The translations under genes and the position numbers were made by a program. 64,000 bases of DNA from positions 1-64,000 of the forward strand of contig CALURI010000007.1 in assembly GCA_944323135.1 (NCBI GenBank), in the 5' to 3' direction. The notes below the pieces were generated by a model. That model had not been told where the DNA came from and did not search any database. It saw only the letters and a program-made list of their open reading frames with translations. The stretch is from Candidatus Gastranaerophilales bacterium. Its GTDB lineage: Bacteria; Cyanobacteriota; Vampirovibrionia; Gastranaerophilales; Gastranaerophilaceae. Positions 15,652 to 54,514 of this stretch are shown here, one piece after another. Position 1 is the stretch's first letter, and every line of letters starts with the position of its first letter.

Positions 15652-16647
15652 CTATAAAATAAGAGCAATAAATGCAGCTACAACCATTGCAGGCCCAAAC
15701 GGCATATAAGTTCTATTTTCAGGATGTTCTCTTAATCCTTTAAAAATTAATATACAAGAAATAATACCGAGTGCTGCAAGTACAATTGCACATATAGTAT
15801 ATAAAACAATGTTATCAACAGTTATTACTCTGTAATTTTGTAATGTATAGAATGTAATGGCAAATAACACAAAAACAGTGAAGGTTATAAGAGTTTTCCA
15901 ATCTTTATTTTTAGCAAGTCCTTTAACAAATATAGGTAAGAATATAATTACCTGAATAAGTACAGACATTGCAAGAACTACAATTAGTGATCTCCAGCCA
16001 AAAATTGAGCCTAAACCTGCAGCAATAAATGTGTCACCTTCTCCGAAAGCTCTTGTCCCCACGATTAAATATCCTGCTCTTGCGCATATTTCAAGAATTA
16101 CAGCACCTAAAAGCATCCCCATAAGTGATATAAATATAGGATTGTTAAGTACAAAGTATTTTGTAAATTCTATAGGAGTGCCGGCTATGTGTGTTTGGAA
16201 TAGTGATACTGCTGTTACGACAATTGCGTATAAAAGACCGACAGCTATTAATGTATATGTATGAATATCATAAACAACTTTTTCTTTAATATCAGTTCCG
16301 GCAATAACAATTAGTAATGATGAAATTACCCAGGCAAATAATGTATCAGCACTTACTCCGAATTTCATAAATAATAATGTAAAAATTATACCTGTTAAAA
16401 GCTCAACAATCGGGTATTGAATGCTGATGTGTTCTTTACAAAATGCACATTTCCCTCTTAATAAGATATATGATAATACCGGTATATTATGCCACCACTT
16501 TAAGGGGTGTTGGCATTTGGGGCATTTTGATGCCGGAAAAACTATTGATTCTTCACTTAATGTCCTTAAAATAACGACATTTAAAAAACTTCCTATACAT
16601 AAACCGATTATAAAAATAAATGTTAAAATAGCAATTAATGCTCCCAT
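15652..16647 (-). CDS. pilD: Prepilin leader peptidase / N-methyltransferase
   Basis: A polytopic membrane aspartic peptidase (A24) that cleaves the Gly-Phe bond of type IV prepilins and pseudopilins and N-methylates the new Phe. The 331 residues include the cytoplasmic zinc-type cysteine region (CPKCQHPLKWWHNIPVLSY and GKCAFC), needed for methyl transfer. The two catalytic Asp regions are GTDIKEKVVYD and GEGDTFIAAGLG. At least seven hydrophobic segments follow. Its substrates should include the GFTLAE prepilins at 20, 36, 42, 44 and 54 kb. It is 15 bp downstream of a SigF-like gene, so pilus control and processing are probably co-expressed. Confidence 0.94.
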   Translation of the reverse strand: MGALIAILTFIFIIGLCIGSFLNVVILRTLSEESIVFPASKCPKCQHPLKWWHNIPVLSYILLRGKCAFCKEHISIQYPIVELLTGIIFTLLFMKFGVSADTLFAWVISSLLIVIAGTDIKEKVVYDIHTYTLIAVGLLYAIVVTAVSLFQTHIAGTPIEFTKYFVLNNPIFISLMGMLLGAVILEICARAGYLIVGTRAFGEGDTFIAAGLGSIFGWRSLIVVLAMSVLIQVIIFLPIFVKGLAKNKDWKTLITFTVFVLFAITFYTLQNYRVITVDNIVLYTICAIVLAALGIISCILIFKGLREHPENRTYMPFGPAMVVAAFIALIL

Positions 16648-19663: not shown

Positions 19664-20580
19664 TTATTTCCCTCTGACAAAATCATGCCAGTAATCTTTA
19701 CCGGATTCTGTCGGGTGTTGGTTTATAAGTGCATAATTTGAACAAGTAAGTTGCAATATCCTATCTGAAGTATATTTGCAATAGTCTTTTGTAGATATAG
19801 TACAGTTTCCATCGTATGACGTACAACTTGGATTATTTTTATGCTCTTGTCCCCAAGGAATAACATATCCGTCTGTCGTAAACATAAATACAAAGTAATC
19901 TTGCCCGTATCGGTTCGGAGCTTTTTCACCGTTAATATCAATGCAAACTTTAGGTCCATTATTTCCTAAATTTGGTAGATCATCAAAGCCAATAACTCTC
20001 CCTTGAGAATCCCAGAAAAAGCCGCTTACATTACAGTTAGAAGCATACGTTTTATTCCCTGTAATACCTTTCCACTTATAAGGTGAAGCTCCTATTGTAT
20101 TCCCTTCTTCATCTGTTGAATCCCATTTTAAATCTGACTTTTTTAAAACAGCATTAAATTCTTTTTGGAATTCTTTGAATGTCTTTGTAGATGTATAAGT
20201 TGCCGCATATTCACTGACAGAGATTCCATTGTGTACTTGAAACATCTTAGCTGCTTGATTTAAATCTGAATATGCTGCTTTTAACTGATTTTGTAAAACC
20301 ATATATTTGTAATTTGCAATTAACGAAGGCATTGTCATTGCAGCAACAACACCAATAATACCAAGCGTAATTAACACCTCAGCAAGAGTAAATCCAAAAT
20401 GTCGTGTTGTATTCTTTTTCAAGTTAAAAAAATCTCTCTCAATGTGATGCATAACTTTATTATACATCTTTATAATGTTAATGTAAAGTTTATAATCACA
20501 AAAAATTCTAAAATCTTGAAAACCATTGTCTAATATGCATTTTTCGGGGGGGGGGCGATTCTCAGCTCTTCTCTATTCAT
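19664..20580 (-). CDS. Prepilin-like protein, copy 1, behind an out-of-frame poly-C tract
   Basis: A type IV pilin/pseudopilin-like protein. The class III leader ends FG before FTLAEVLITLGIIGVVAAMTM (the transmembrane assembly helix with Glu at +5). A roughly 200-residue periplasmic domain with several cysteines follows. The frame is open from an internal ATG at 20467, which has no good RBS. A better start, ATG 20580, has AGGAGG 7 nt before it and a TTGACA-N17-AATAAT promoter, but the ten C at 20555-20546 put it out of frame (stop after 16 codons). With 11 C the frame runs uninterrupted through all 38 codons to 20467 with no stop. See the phase-variation finding. Cleavage by PilD is expected. 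Confidence 0.8.
20546..20555 (-). repeat. Poly-C tract (10) in the start region of prepilin copy 1
   Basis: Ten consecutive G on the plus strand, 25 nt into the frame that opens at ATG 20580. Eleven would join that ATG in frame to the prepilin; ten does not. Confidence 0.9.
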
Positions 20581-20614
20581 AATATTGCCTCCTTTTATAT
20601 AAATCTCTGTATTT

Positions 20615-20643
20615 ATTATTTATAATATTTTGATTTTTGTCAA
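20615..20643 (-). promoter_or_regulatory. Promoter of prepilin copy 1
   Basis: Minus strand TTGACA (20643-20638), 17-bp spacer, AATAAT (20620-20615), identical in layout to the other three tract-bearing prepilins. The -35 box overlaps the stop codon of the HD-GYP gene. Confidence 0.75.
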
Positions 20644-36562: not shown

Positions 36563-37306
36563 ATGAAAAAAGGTTTTACTTTGGCTGAAGTCCTTATAAC
36601 TCTCGGAGTGATAGGTATTGTTGTTACAATGACAATGCCTGTTTTAATTTCTCATTATAGAGATAAAGAATTTGTAACACGTTTAAAAAAAGTTTATTCC
36701 GTACTTGATAATGCTTATCATAGTATTATTTTTGAAGAGGGAAATGCTTCATCTTGGGATATGCTTCCTGTGGAATATGAAATTAATAGTGATGGAAATA
36801 TTATTGAAGATGTATACGGTGTAAAAATTGATAAAAATGCTTATCCAAATTCAATTATGGTATATAAGCTTTTTAAACCTTATTTAAAAGTAGTGAAAGA
36901 ATGTGAAAAAAATGATCATAGTTGTTTTCCTGAAGAAGTTATAGAATGGGGTAGTCGAAAAATTTGCGCTGGATCTTCATCAATTTGTTCATTATATAAA
37001 AATGGAAGTGGGGCAAGAATATTTATAGTTTTAGAGGATGGAATAAGTATAGGTTTTTTACAAAATCAAGTTATTTATGTTGATTTAAACGGGCCGGCAA
37101 GACCTAATAAAGTTGGGGAAGATGTTTTTCAGTTTAATTTAGGTGTAAATTCATTGACATTGCCAAATGATGGAAATGAAACAGATGGTGGTGTTATCTG
37201 TTATTCCAATAATTGGACATGCTCTGCTTGGGCAATAATAAATGAAAATTTGGACTATTTGCACTGTAATGATTTAAACTGGAAAAGTAAAATAAGGTGT
37301 AAATAA
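36563..37306 (+). CDS. Prepilin-like protein, constitutively in frame
   Basis: A 247-residue pilin-like protein with a minimal leader MKKG before FTLAEVLITLGVIGIVVTM (Glu at +5). A periplasmic domain with many cysteines follows (CEKNDHSCFP, KICAGSSSICS, VICYSNNWTCSAW, YLHCND and a final RCK). AAGGAG lies 7 nt before the ATG. Unlike the other four complete prepilins in the window, it has no G/C tract and needs no frame change. It diverges from an XRE regulator that may control it. The minor-pilin or pseudopilin role is inferred from the N-terminus. Confidence 0.85.
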   Translation: MKKGFTLAEVLITLGVIGIVVTMTMPVLISHYRDKEFVTRLKKVYSVLDNAYHSIIFEEGNASSWDMLPVEYEINSDGNIIEDVYGVKIDKNAYPNSIMVYKLFKPYLKVVKECEKNDHSCFPEEVIEWGSRKICAGSSSICSLYKNGSGARIFIVLEDGISIGFLQNQVIYVDLNGPARPNKVGEDVFQFNLGVNSLTLPNDGNETDGGVICYSNNWTCSAWAIINENLDYLHCNDLNWKSKIRCK

Positions 37307-42065: not shown

Positions 42066-42817
42066 CTAGTTAGAATTTGTATCAGGTATAATTTGTTCCC
42101 AAGGGTAGTTTTTTCGGATTTCCCAGCCATCCATTTCGATTAAGCGTGTGCAATCATGTCTTCGACCTTTTGCAGCTCCAACTTTGCATTTTTCATTTAA
42201 TTCTTCTCTTGTTAAACCATCAGATGAAGGAGTAGAAGTTATAAATTTTCCTTTGTAAAGAGTAAATAAAAAAGTCCTTTTGCCGTCATAAGATTCAGAT
42301 TTGCAATATTTATAATCAGTGCAGTAAAAGAAATATACCACAGGTTCACTTTCCCAAAGACCAATATATGATGAAAAACCGCTTCCATCAGTGAATGCAA
42401 TTTTATAATGTTTTTCTGTTTCTTCTTCTGAAGTAATTGTTTTTATATATTTCCCAATTCCGTTATTAATCCAATCTTTAATTTTGCTGATATTTCCAGC
42501 ATCTTCTGAGGTAAATATACTATCCTCAGGTGTAATTCCTTCGTCATTTTCCCATTGCATTATTGCTTGATTCATTATTGAATAAAATTTAGAAAGTTTA
42601 ACTGCTGTTTGTTTTTTTTGATAATTCACAATTAACGCAGGCATAGTCATAGCTGCAACTATACCAATTATTCCAAGAGTAATTAAAACTTCCGCAAGAG
42701 TAAAACCAAAAGATTTATTTGAGTGATACTTTAAAAAGTAAGTATATTTGTTCAAACCCCTTCTTATACTTGCGTTTTGCGGGGGGGGGGCACTTTCAAA
42801 GCTTTGTTATAACTCAT
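42066..42817 (-). CDS. Prepilin-like protein, copy 2, behind an out-of-frame poly-C tract
   Basis: A pilin-like protein whose frame as sequenced is open from TTG 42755 (MNKYTYFLKYHSNKSFG then FTLAEVLITLGIIGIVAAMTM). That TTG has no properly spaced RBS. The upstream ATG at 42817 does (AGGAG 7-8 nt before), and so does the conserved promoter. Between them are ten C; with ten, the ATG frame stops after 17 codons, and with 11 it reads MSYNKALKVPPPPQNASIRRG and on into the pilin. The mature domain is ~190 residues with four to five cysteines. The first ~210 bp are nearly identical to copy 3; the C-terminal domains differ. Confidence 0.8.
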
Positions 42818-42864
42818 TTCTCAACTCCTCTTATGCTTCCAACACTTTTATTATTTATGATTTA
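42651..42864 (-). repeat. Direct repeat A flanking purA (promoter, tract and prepilin N-terminus)
   Basis: Nearly identical to 44807-45019, apart from the tract length and a few substitutions. It covers the promoter, RBS, leader, poly-C tract and the start of the conserved pilin helix. Both copies have the same orientation. Confidence 0.9.
42781..42790 (-). repeat. Poly-C tract (10) in the start region of prepilin copy 2
   Basis: Ten G on the plus strand, immediately after nine codons from ATG 42817. One more base would restore the frame. Confidence 0.9.
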
Positions 42865-42878
42865 TTTAATTTTGTCAA
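42850..42878 (-). promoter_or_regulatory. Promoter of prepilin copy 2
   Basis: TTGACA (42878-42873), 17-bp spacer, AATAAT (42855-42850), 3 bp after the purA stop codon. Confidence 0.75.
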
Positions 42879-42880
42879 GT

Positions 42881-44158
42881 TTATTTGAAAATAGTTTGTT
42901 CTCTATCCGGTCCTACGCTTACGATAGAAATTGGGACTTCGAGTAATTCTTCCAGTCTCGCGAGATATTTTTTTGCATTTTCAGGGAGTTTTTCATAATC
43001 TGTAATCCTTGAAATATCTTCTCTCCACCCTTTGTGGGTTTCATATTCGGGTTCTAAATATTTATGGATAAATACATCTGTCGGGTAATTTGTGTAAATT
43101 TTACCGTTTCTAGTGTCTTTGTATGCTGTACAAACTTTTATTTCATCAAATGTGTCAAATACATCTATTTTTGTCAGGGCAACTGAAGTTAGGCCTCCAA
43201 CTAAAACGGAATATTTCATTGTTACGGCATCAAACCAGCCGCAACGTCTTGCTCTTCCTGTTGTTACGCCATATTCATGACCAATTTCCCTTATTTTATC
43301 CCCTGTTTCATCTTTTAATTCCGTAACAAAAGGTCCTTCTCCAACTCTTGTTACGTAAGCTTTTGCAACACCTATAACTTCATCAATCATAGTCGGCCCA
43401 TAGCCTGAACCTGTTGCAGCTCCTCCGCCTATTGGATTTGAAGATGTTACAAAAGGGTATGTTCCATAATCTATATCTAGCATTACACCTTGCGCACCTT
43501 CAAAAAGAATTGCTTTTTTTTCACGTTTAGCATCTTCCAAAACTTTTTGCCAGTCAAAACATACATAAGGTCTGAAAATTTCTGCATATTTTTTGCATAA
43601 ATCTAAAATTTCTGTTTTTGTATAAGTTTTCAGTCCGTAAACTTCTTTTAACGTTTTATTTTTTAATGGAAGTATTATGTCAAGTTTTTCGGATAATGCA
43701 TCTTCTGAATACAAATCTTCGACTTTTAAACCGATTCTTGCCATTTTGTCAGTGTAAGTAGGCCCTATACCTTTTTTTGTTGTTCCGATTTTACCTTTAG
43801 TTGCATTATTTTCTGAATATCCGTCAACTTCTGTATGATAAGGCATTGTAATTGATGCCAGCGGATTAATTTTAAGCCCTGAAACATCAATTCCTTCTTT
43901 TATAAGACCTTGAATTTCTTCTTCAAAGTATTCTGGTAAAATGACTGTTCCTGCACCTATAAAGCAGATTTTATCTTTATATAAAATTCCTGATGGGATT
44001 AAGTGAAATTTAAAAGTCTTGTTATTCGCAACAACAGTATGTCCTGCATTACAGCCGCCTTGATATCTGATAATTAAATCAGCATCTTGTGCTAATAAAT
44101 CAGTAATTTTTGCTTTCCCTTCATCGCCCCATTGAGCGCCTACTACAACCTTATTCAT
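42881..44158 (-). CDS. purA: Adenylosuccinate synthetase
   Basis: Converts IMP, aspartate and GTP to adenylosuccinate in AMP synthesis. From ATG 44158, with AAGGATTAAGGG upstream, the protein has about 425 residues. Key motifs are QWGDEGKAK (P-loop; the usual GKGK is GKAK here), GCNAGHTVV, GTTKKGIGPTYTDK and GRARRCGWFDAV. The frame extends upstream to 44191 but family members start at MNKVVVGAQWGDEG. Prepilin copies 2 and 3 lie on each side in the same orientation as 210-bp direct repeats. Confidence 0.95.
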   Translation of the reverse strand: MNKVVVGAQWGDEGKAKITDLLAQDADLIIRYQGGCNAGHTVVANNKTFKFHLIPSGILYKDKICFIGAGTVILPEYFEEEIQGLIKEGIDVSGLKINPLASITMPYHTEVDGYSENNATKGKIGTTKKGIGPTYTDKMARIGLKVEDLYSEDALSEKLDIILPLKNKTLKEVYGLKTYTKTEILDLCKKYAEIFRPYVCFDWQKVLEDAKREKKAILFEGAQGVMLDIDYGTYPFVTSSNPIGGGAATGSGYGPTMIDEVIGVAKAYVTRVGEGPFVTELKDETGDKIREIGHEYGVTTGRARRCGWFDAVTMKYSVLVGGLTSVALTKIDVFDTFDEIKVCTAYKDTRNGKIYTNYPTDVFIHKYLEPEYETHKGWREDISRITDYEKLPENAKKYLARLEELLEVPISIVSVGPDREQTIFK

Positions 44159-44224: not shown

Positions 44225-44972
44225 TCATAATCTTATTGGGTAATCACTTTTGAACTCCCAACCGTCAAGTTCTAGTAATCCGGTACATGATTGGTGGAAC
44301 AGGTCAGAAAGGCATAGAGATTTTAATTCATCCCTGCTTTTATCTGTTCTATTTGCGTATGCATATAATTTTGGTGTTTGAGCCCTTCCACTCTTACATA
44401 AGTAAAATACAAAAATATCTCTTCCGCCTTCATTAGGAATTTGGTCACCGTTGATGTCGACAAATATGTCATAACAAGAACCGGTATTTACTATTATGCT
44501 TGTTCCGTCTGATAAATAAATTTGTGGTTTGTTTGTCAGATATTTATTGTTGATTTCTTTTGTACAGGATTCTTCATATTTAATGGAGTTAACGTATGGT
44601 TTTAAATATGTTTCAGCAAACATTTTTGATGCATTTGAGCGTTCTTCTACTTTATCATCGGTAAAACTTAAATATTCCCAATTTTCCATTCCGCCATAAT
44701 CAAGTTGAGCGCTTGTTAATGCTTGTGAAATTACTGAATAAGCTTTTTTTACCTTTGTTGCGGTTGTTTTTTTCTTATGATTAGCAATCAACGTGGGCAT
44801 AGTTAAAGCTGCAACTATACCAATTATTCCAAGAGTAATTAAAACTTCCGCAAGAGTAAAACCAAAAGATTTATTTGAGTGATACTTTAAAAAGTAAGTA
44901 TATTTGTTCAAACCCCTTCTTATACTTGCGTTTTGCGGGGGGGGGCACTTTCAAAGCTTTGTTATAACTCAT
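44225..44972 (-). CDS. Prepilin-like protein, copy 3, behind an out-of-frame poly-C tract
   Basis: As sequenced the frame is open from TTG 44911 (MNKYTYFLKYHSNKSFG then FTLAEVLITLGIIGIVAALTM). The strong start is ATG 44972 with AGGAG upstream. The tract here has nine C, two short of the 11 that would give frame (8 would also work); with nine the frame stops after 34 codons. The periplasmic domain (~180 residues) contains several cysteines (ESCTKE, GSCYD, YLCKSG, SLCLSD, QSCTGL) and differs from copy 2. The promoter lies within the 3' end of the upstream gene (45017). Confidence 0.8.
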
Positions 44973-45019
44973 TTTTCAACTCCTCTTATGCTTCCAACAC
45001 TTTTATTATTTACGATTTA
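44807..45019 (-). repeat. Direct repeat B flanking purA
   Basis: Nearly identical partner of 42651-42864, 2.16 kb away. Its promoter end overlaps the stop codon of the GH15-like gene. Confidence 0.9.
44937..44945 (-). repeat. Poly-C tract (9) in the start region of prepilin copy 3
   Basis: Nine G on the plus strand; the only one of the four tracts that is not ten long. The surrounding sequence is the same as in copy 2. Confidence 0.9.
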
Positions 45020-45033
45020 AATATTTTTGTCAA
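45005..45033 (-). promoter_or_regulatory. Promoter of prepilin copy 3
   Basis: TTGACA (45033-45028), 17-bp spacer, AATAAT (45010-45005). The -35 box lies inside the last codons of the gene that ends at 45017. Confidence 0.75.
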
Positions 45034-53792: not shown

Positions 53793-54514
53793 TTACCAAG
53801 GATAATCCTTGCTAATTTCCCAACCGTCTTGTATTATTTTAGCGGCGCAAGTTCTGCCTTCATTTTGAAGATTACATCCCTGATTTATTTCATCTCTTGT
53901 ATTTTCATAGCCTTCAGGTAAAATACCTTTTCCGTTTATTCTTTTAAATATAAAAACATCTTTTCCTACTGTATTTGGATTTTTCCCGCCATTAATATCT
54001 ACTATTATCATGTTAGTTTTTGCATTAGTTGTACCAATTCCTGTATAAACAAAAATTGCATACAAAGTTCCGTCAGGAAGATAAAATATTATACGGCTGT
54101 CCGCAGACATTGATAATCCAACATTAAAAATTGTTTTATTTAAGTATTTATAAGGAATATTAGAATTAAAACCGCATTCTTTGTATGTTTTACATAAATT
54201 TGAATTGTTGAAAAAAGGTTTCCAATATTGATTATAATAAGCTTCAGCCCCGATATCATAAGCATCTTCCCAGTGTTCAGATGAACCATTTGAAGCTTCT
54301 GACATTTTAAATGCTTGATTTAATACAGAATATGCTTTTTTTAGTTTAGTAAGATTTTCTTTTTTTTGATAATTTGCAATTAATGACGGCATTGTCATTG
54401 CCGCAACTACTCCGATGATTCCTAAAGTAATCAAAACTTCTGCTAAAGTAAAACCCTTAGAACCGCCTACATTTTGCGGGGGGGGGGCACTCTCAAAGCT
54501 TTATTATAATTCAT
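53793..54514 (-). CDS. Prepilin-like protein, copy 4, behind an out-of-frame poly-C tract
   Basis: In the frame as sequenced the only start codon lies inside the pilin helix (TTG 54434), which would remove the leader and GFTLAEV. Reading upstream in that frame gives QNVGGSKG, FTLAEVLITLGIIGVVAAMTM, back into the C tract, with no start. The proper start is ATG 54514 (AGGAG upstream), which the ten C put out of frame (stop soon after). With 11 C it encodes MNYNKALRVPPPPQNVGGSKG then FTLAE, a 21-residue leader. The ~200-residue mature domain has four cysteines. This copy is the best evidence that the tract is inside the gene. Confidence 0.85.
54478..54487 (-). repeat. Poly-C tract (10) in the start region of prepilin copy 4
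   Basis: Ten G on the plus strand, after nine codons from ATG 54514 and ten codons before FTLAE. One extra base joins the frames. Confidence 0.92.

Follow-up and report, generated by a model that had tools for sequence, protein, structure and literature searches.

Type IV prepilin genes behind C/G tracts in Gastranaerophilales: a large repertoire probably under default-OFF phase variation

The window, by which we mean the whole 64-kb stretch of Gastranaerophilales DNA analysed here, carries four C runs on its minus strand (lengths 10, 10, 9 and 10 in copies 1 to 4), where the chance expectation for 8-mer C runs over its entire length is 0.07. Each run lies between an upstream ATG and a pilin coding sequence on the same strand. 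In copy 1, the ATG at 20578..20580 opens the leader MNREELRIAPPP..., followed by the C10 tract (20546..20555) and by a pilin ORF that starts at an internal ATG and bears the GFTLAEVLITLG motif (19664..20467, N_methyl); a TTGACA at 20638..20643 is a -35-like element, so called from its sequence. Copy 2 begins with the ATG at 42815..42817 (leader MSYNKALKVPPP...) and continues through a C10 tract (42781..42790) into a pilin body listed as a TTG-opened ORF without an ATG start (42066..42755). Copy 3 (ATG 44970..44972, C9 tract 44937..44945, pilin body 44225..44911) has almost the same leader as copy 2 and an unlike pilin body, and copy 4 (ATG 54512..54514, C10 tract 54478..54487), which at 11 C reads MNYNKALRVPPPPQNVGGSKG/FTLAEV, has a pilin body without its own ATG start (53793..54434). 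All four upstream ATGs have a GGAG-type ribosome site, with TTGACA about 60 nt further 5'. The N-terminal cleavage/methylation motif scores above cut-off in copies 1-3 (PF07963 and TIGR02532), and the listed ORF of copy 4 begins inside the prepilin motif. As expected of type IV prepilins, the genome encodes their likely processor, a prepilin peptidase (Peptidase_A24, PF06750 and PF01478; minus strand, 15652..16647). A tract-free prepilin that starts MKKGFTLAEV (plus strand, 36563..37306) provides a constitutive comparison within the same window.

As assembled, all four copies are off, as the initial annotation had held, and its proposal of a common ON length stands as well: the distances from ATG to pilin are 2, 2, 1 and 2 modulo 3, so that every copy comes into frame at 11 C (or 8, or 14). 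Only copies 1, 2 and 4 are exactly one base short, as had been stated for all four; copy 3, with 9 C, needs two more or one fewer, its pilin being in frame at 8 or 11. For copy 1, the 38 codons said to lie open between the tract and the ATG at 20467 are in fact counted from the upstream ATG, the interval from tract to internal ATG being 78 nt (26 codons); the frame is indeed open there, as had been predicted, but this one stretch is weak evidence alone, with stops making up some 9-12% of codons in other frames. Nor is the copy 1 leader unrelated to all others: MNREEL[KR]IAPPP or near variants of it occur elsewhere in the same genome, at no fewer than five loci (L031, L055, L072, L074, L075).

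The genome to which the window belongs (1.95 Mb, 34 contigs) holds 59 C runs of at least 8, both strands counted. Read with their flanks, the runs measure 10 in 49 of 58 cases, 9 in five and 11 in four, and nearly all lie 15-36 nt 3' of an ATG with a Shine-Dalgarno sequence and 5' of a GFTLAEVLITLG type IV prepilin. They fall into two classes of locus, with poly-C on the coding strand (MNREELKIAPPP, MFNREALRVPPP, MDLRAFRIAPPP) or with poly-G (MKRLLRTVKSGGG, MKRFVKIENVGGG). Across 33 species of the genus, the summed counts of exact runs of 9, 10 and 11 are 148, 1621 and 150, and many genomes have some 50-170 of these loci; elsewhere in the order tract-type runs are rare, the exceptions being a few genera within this family. 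The distribution of pilin 5' ends is bimodal, with no run above 4 in 13 of 88, a run of 6-8 in three and of 9-11 in 72, in a tally that oversamples 11-base loci; decayed tracts of 5-8 are almost lacking among these 88. Homologues whose ATG is fixed in frame without a tract, which the initial annotation had expected to tell against its reading, do exist (12 of the 13 pilins without a long run have an in-frame ATG), yet these are other loci, which coexist with the tract-bearing ones.

The ON length read from the four copies extends far beyond them. We read tract stretches from consensus assemblies, one per species, with a choice of loci partly biased to those holding 9s or 11s, and in this material, which comes from many species, 11 modulo 3 is the length that brings the pilin into frame in 145 of 167 loci with an assignable start. 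A rule was used to assign the starts, and the 22 exceptions include some whose start is doubtful. Collapsing similar leaders gives 47 upstream sequence families, of which 39 have ON at 11; because leaders share ancestry, these families are not fully independent. Ten-base loci with a good start (n=116) need one additional base in 110 cases, two in 3 and none in 3, and the need for +1 holds for both tract bases and over all three registers of the ATG-to-tract distance, which varies while the tract-to-pilin distance compensates. Eleven-base tracts are plainly in frame in 22 of 28 sampled. Among loci of the window's own genome with a clear start, only one is in frame from its leader ATG as assembled (a G11 tract on contig 5, near 95.87 kb), and another, L061, could be read at 10 if translation began at a second, overlapping ATG. 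Other start codons that would give the pilin frame without a change of tract length were considered and set aside, as they exist in just 17 of 109 loci.

Beyond the tract, the pilin frame contains 8 stops in 4846 codons, as against 416 in 4715 and 573 in 4796 in the other two frames, so that the openness remarked on in copy 1 is a property of all loci. It is kept even in loci with an internal ATG and a promoter-like site (0 stops in 738 codons), and in the unshifted frame a stop comes mostly at codon 12-17. With the pilin frame open to this degree, reading in the ON frame through the tract appears to be under selection. The same observation bears on whether these genes are silent cassettes or pseudogenes that merely serve as a store for gene conversion. 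Such a store would fit the finding that nearly all are off as assembled and that leaders are common to different bodies, but it would need neither an ATG nor a frame, and here the start and the ON frame are kept across the tract and the bodies are intact; we consider this reading highly improbable.

Tract length is narrowly set. In 12 genomes of the genus, G-flanked runs of 9, 10 and 11 number 20, 766 and 40 (about 93% at 10), and runs that are not G-flanked in the same genomes number 32, 62 and 26 (hand counts). In another genus of the family whose mode is also 10 (G061), 23 of 24 sampled ten-base pilin tracts need +1. G078 and G075 have 9 as their common length; where a start can be assigned, every nine-base tract (24 of 24) needs +1 and most of the 10s sampled are ON. 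Genus g12 is mixed in both tract length and phase. A usual length of 9 is seen in one genus and of 10 in two, and as judged from the assemblies the rule is that ON equals the usual length plus one, with a set length that differs by lineage. G tracts are hard to sequence and their annotated lengths can err (PMC9187656), but it is extremely unlikely that sequencing or assembly has simply called the runs one base short: a set length that differs between genera argues against an artefact fixed at 10, the very assemblies concerned also yield 9s and 11s and have C runs of other kinds with a wider spread of lengths, there is agreement between assemblies produced by different projects, and the runs of a Helicobacter sp. 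MAG spread broadly, from 8 to 14. Homopolymer bias, one of three causes the initial annotation had offered for the OFF state of the four copies, is for these reasons unlikely; a real default-OFF state fits best, and slippage by RNA polymerase fits less well.

We think it probable that these loci form a large type IV prepilin repertoire under default-OFF phase variation, turned ON by a replication slip of +1. Each pilin gene would open with an ATG that precedes a C or G run by some 15-36 nt; at the usual length of the lineage (10 in this genus), translation would end soon after the tract and yield no pilin, a one-base expansion during DNA replication would bring the pilin into frame, and a contraction would turn it off again. 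Each cell would then show few pilins, and different cells a different few. The model might be squared with the tight set length and the scarcity of +2 phases if slips are balanced at the set length: a +1 ON state would then revert fast, and ON would be brief and self-resetting. The tract, its start and phase, the open ON frame, the intact bodies, the minority of loci at the ON length and a single polarity relative to GC skew are all read directly from the DNA; from them we infer replication slippage as the switch, ON cells at low frequency, display at the surface and selection for default OFF. Switches that work by replication slippage have C/G runs as their standard substrate, and default-OFF phase variation accounts for such tracts here as well as for the in-frame 11s, the nature of the products (pilins) and the pairs of near-identical leaders with unequal tracts. 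A simple repeat lies in the 5' part of the reading frame, a change of one unit toggles that frame (off at 10, in frame at 11, with pilin bodies intact), and tract length varies among near-identical copies: copies 2 and 3 (10/9), L059 and L057 (10/11), L147 and L143 (10/11) and the L116 pair (10/8), a comparison of few pairs in which 9- and 11-base loci are oversampled.

Against phase variation, one length is held tighter than in known contingency genomes, for which a broad spread of lengths, absent here, is typical if not strictly defining; moreover, +1 but almost never +2 is needed, though 9s are about as common as 11s. Loss of mismatch repair was discarded as a cause, MutS_V being present in 20 of 20 genomes, and with MutS present slippage may be slow. 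A search for phage carriage found no match to the tract motif in viral contigs.

The nearest precedent for a replication-slippage switch is the sortase-dependent pilus of Bifidobacterium breve, whose G tract is turned ON by replication slippage, with about 30% ON at one locus in mice (PMC9187656). The likeness is close, in that a gut commensal carries an early G run in a pilus gene and its database genome is off by one. However, B. breve has sortase pili, with one or two switched clusters per strain, and reaches ON by losing a base from tracts of 8-13 (PMC9187656), whereas the present loci encode type IV prepilins, number from tens to more than 100 and reach ON by gaining a base at a near-uniform length. 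The poly-G/C contingency loci of Campylobacter jejuni and Helicobacter resemble them in the many C/G runs per genome, and in C. jejuni both the ON length and the ON/OFF state vary by locus (PMC4965091). Among the open-access papers searched, we found no description of phase variation in Gastranaerophilales. If the reading is true, these gut bacteria, non-photosynthetic relatives of the cyanobacteria, possess switchable surface genes in unusually large number, probably with a role in attachment or in avoidance of phages or immunity.

Programmed decoding offers another account of the fixed phase: the DNA would stay at 10 (or 9) and either RNA polymerase would add a base or the ribosome would shift by -1, giving a low, fixed level of every pilin. 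Recoding of this kind explains the tight set length and the near absence of +2 phases, and it suits the single fixed length per genus, the constant need for +1 across registers, families and three genera, and the lack of decayed tracts. At this length the runs exceed the minimum for a ribosomal slippery site and come near the extent of the RNA-DNA hybrid. A fixed run in a fixed phase one base short, with an early stop in the unshifted frame, is also what known programmed slippage and -1 frameshifting look like (PMC1088944, PMC4066793), and a slippery heptamer X XXX XXX followed by a nearby 0-frame stop is present here. Nevertheless, the downstream stimulatory RNA structure usual for -1 frameshifting is missing: we found no excess of structure either up- or downstream of the tract (mean z -0.09 and 0.05). 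G runs, the majority here, are weak for -1 frameshifting in E. coli, in which G_GG.G_GG.U gave the lowest value of a survey, 0.018% without a stimulator (PMC4066793). Transcriptional slippage in bacteria is known chiefly from A/T runs (PMC1088944, PMC3711429) and would call for a conserved base in the mRNA run, whereas here that run is C or G according to chromosomal orientation only. Finally, most sampled 11-base tracts are plainly in frame in the DNA itself, and genus g12 mixes lengths and phases. One-base recoding on C/G runs throughout the genome, in hundreds of prepilin genes of at least three genera and with a genus-specific set length, thus seems to us rather unlikely.

The orientation of the tracts also helps to distinguish the DNA level from the RNA level. 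Along a contig, poly-C nearly always lies on one and the same strand, whatever the direction of the genes, and among all long loci that strand is the C-rich one in 88 of 93 tracts, the five exceptions all lying in one locus with a skew near zero. On the longest contig of G006 there is a single change of polarity, and it falls within the interval in which third-position GC skew flips sign. The mRNA run is therefore C10 or G10 depending on how the gene is oriented relative to the GC-skew strand; the G-rich strand being taken as leading, co-directional genes carry poly-G and head-on genes poly-C in their mRNA. Because polarity tracks GC skew, what is conserved is a property of the DNA strand and not the base in the mRNA, and this fits a DNA-level process such as replication slippage better than RNA slippage, though ordinary strand-biased mutation may be the source of the polarity. 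A dnaA-proximal origin was rejected as the landmark, as dnaA of G006 lies mid-contig, away from the switch. On the same contig (G006:C1), no tracts are listed over about 170 kb (~176-349 kb) around the skew switch at 300-320 kb, which is a probable origin, and tracts are spread across much of the remainder. In the Helicobacter sp. MAG (G044, the genome of L168), poly-C runs of 8-14 likewise lie mostly on one strand per contig, and a bias of C/G runs to one strand may be a general trait of bacteria that have contingency loci.

Strand polarity would also suit a site that acts in the DNA itself, a fixed 10-bp run used for recombination or protein binding, for example as a crossover for swapping leaders, with the reading frame a secondary matter. 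On the poly-C strand, loci of both coding orientations share a core, AGCTnnAAATyG-C10-GA (correlation 0.57, P=0.0013 in the own genome and 0.53, P=0.0055 in other species, with loci fetched by the motif itself excluded), and near-identical leaders stand before unlike pilin bodies. But selection appears to keep a phase and an open frame for which a pure DNA site has no need, and the tract flanks differ in genus g16; we hold such a site to be very unlikely as the main explanation. An unusual rule such as usual length plus one for ON, with a set length specific to each genus, allows tuning by selection, tuning by mutation and recoding to be told apart directly.

Several smaller observations concern the leaders. 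In copies 2 and 3 (42660-42900 and 44810-45030), the leader and the pilin N-terminus are near-identical and the pilin bodies unlike, which suggests that leaders spread by gene conversion. At C5:94437-97462 of the same genome, adjacent pilins with near-identical leaders carry one G11 (ON) and one G10 (OFF) tract. In several relatives, contigs often end at a tract (e.g., G003:C52:2, G013:C91:10, G009:C1:6, G032:C71/C72:45), as a result either of shared leaders or of mixtures of lengths in the population. Between tract and pilin, loci such as L032, L041, L057, L059 and L060 contain a promoter-like site (TTGnnn-17-TATAAT) and then a palindrome (e.g., GATGTAnTACATC), after which comes a short leader with its own ATG, MKKLLG/FTLAEV; promoter-like site and palindrome could possibly form a second, regulated start for some pilins.
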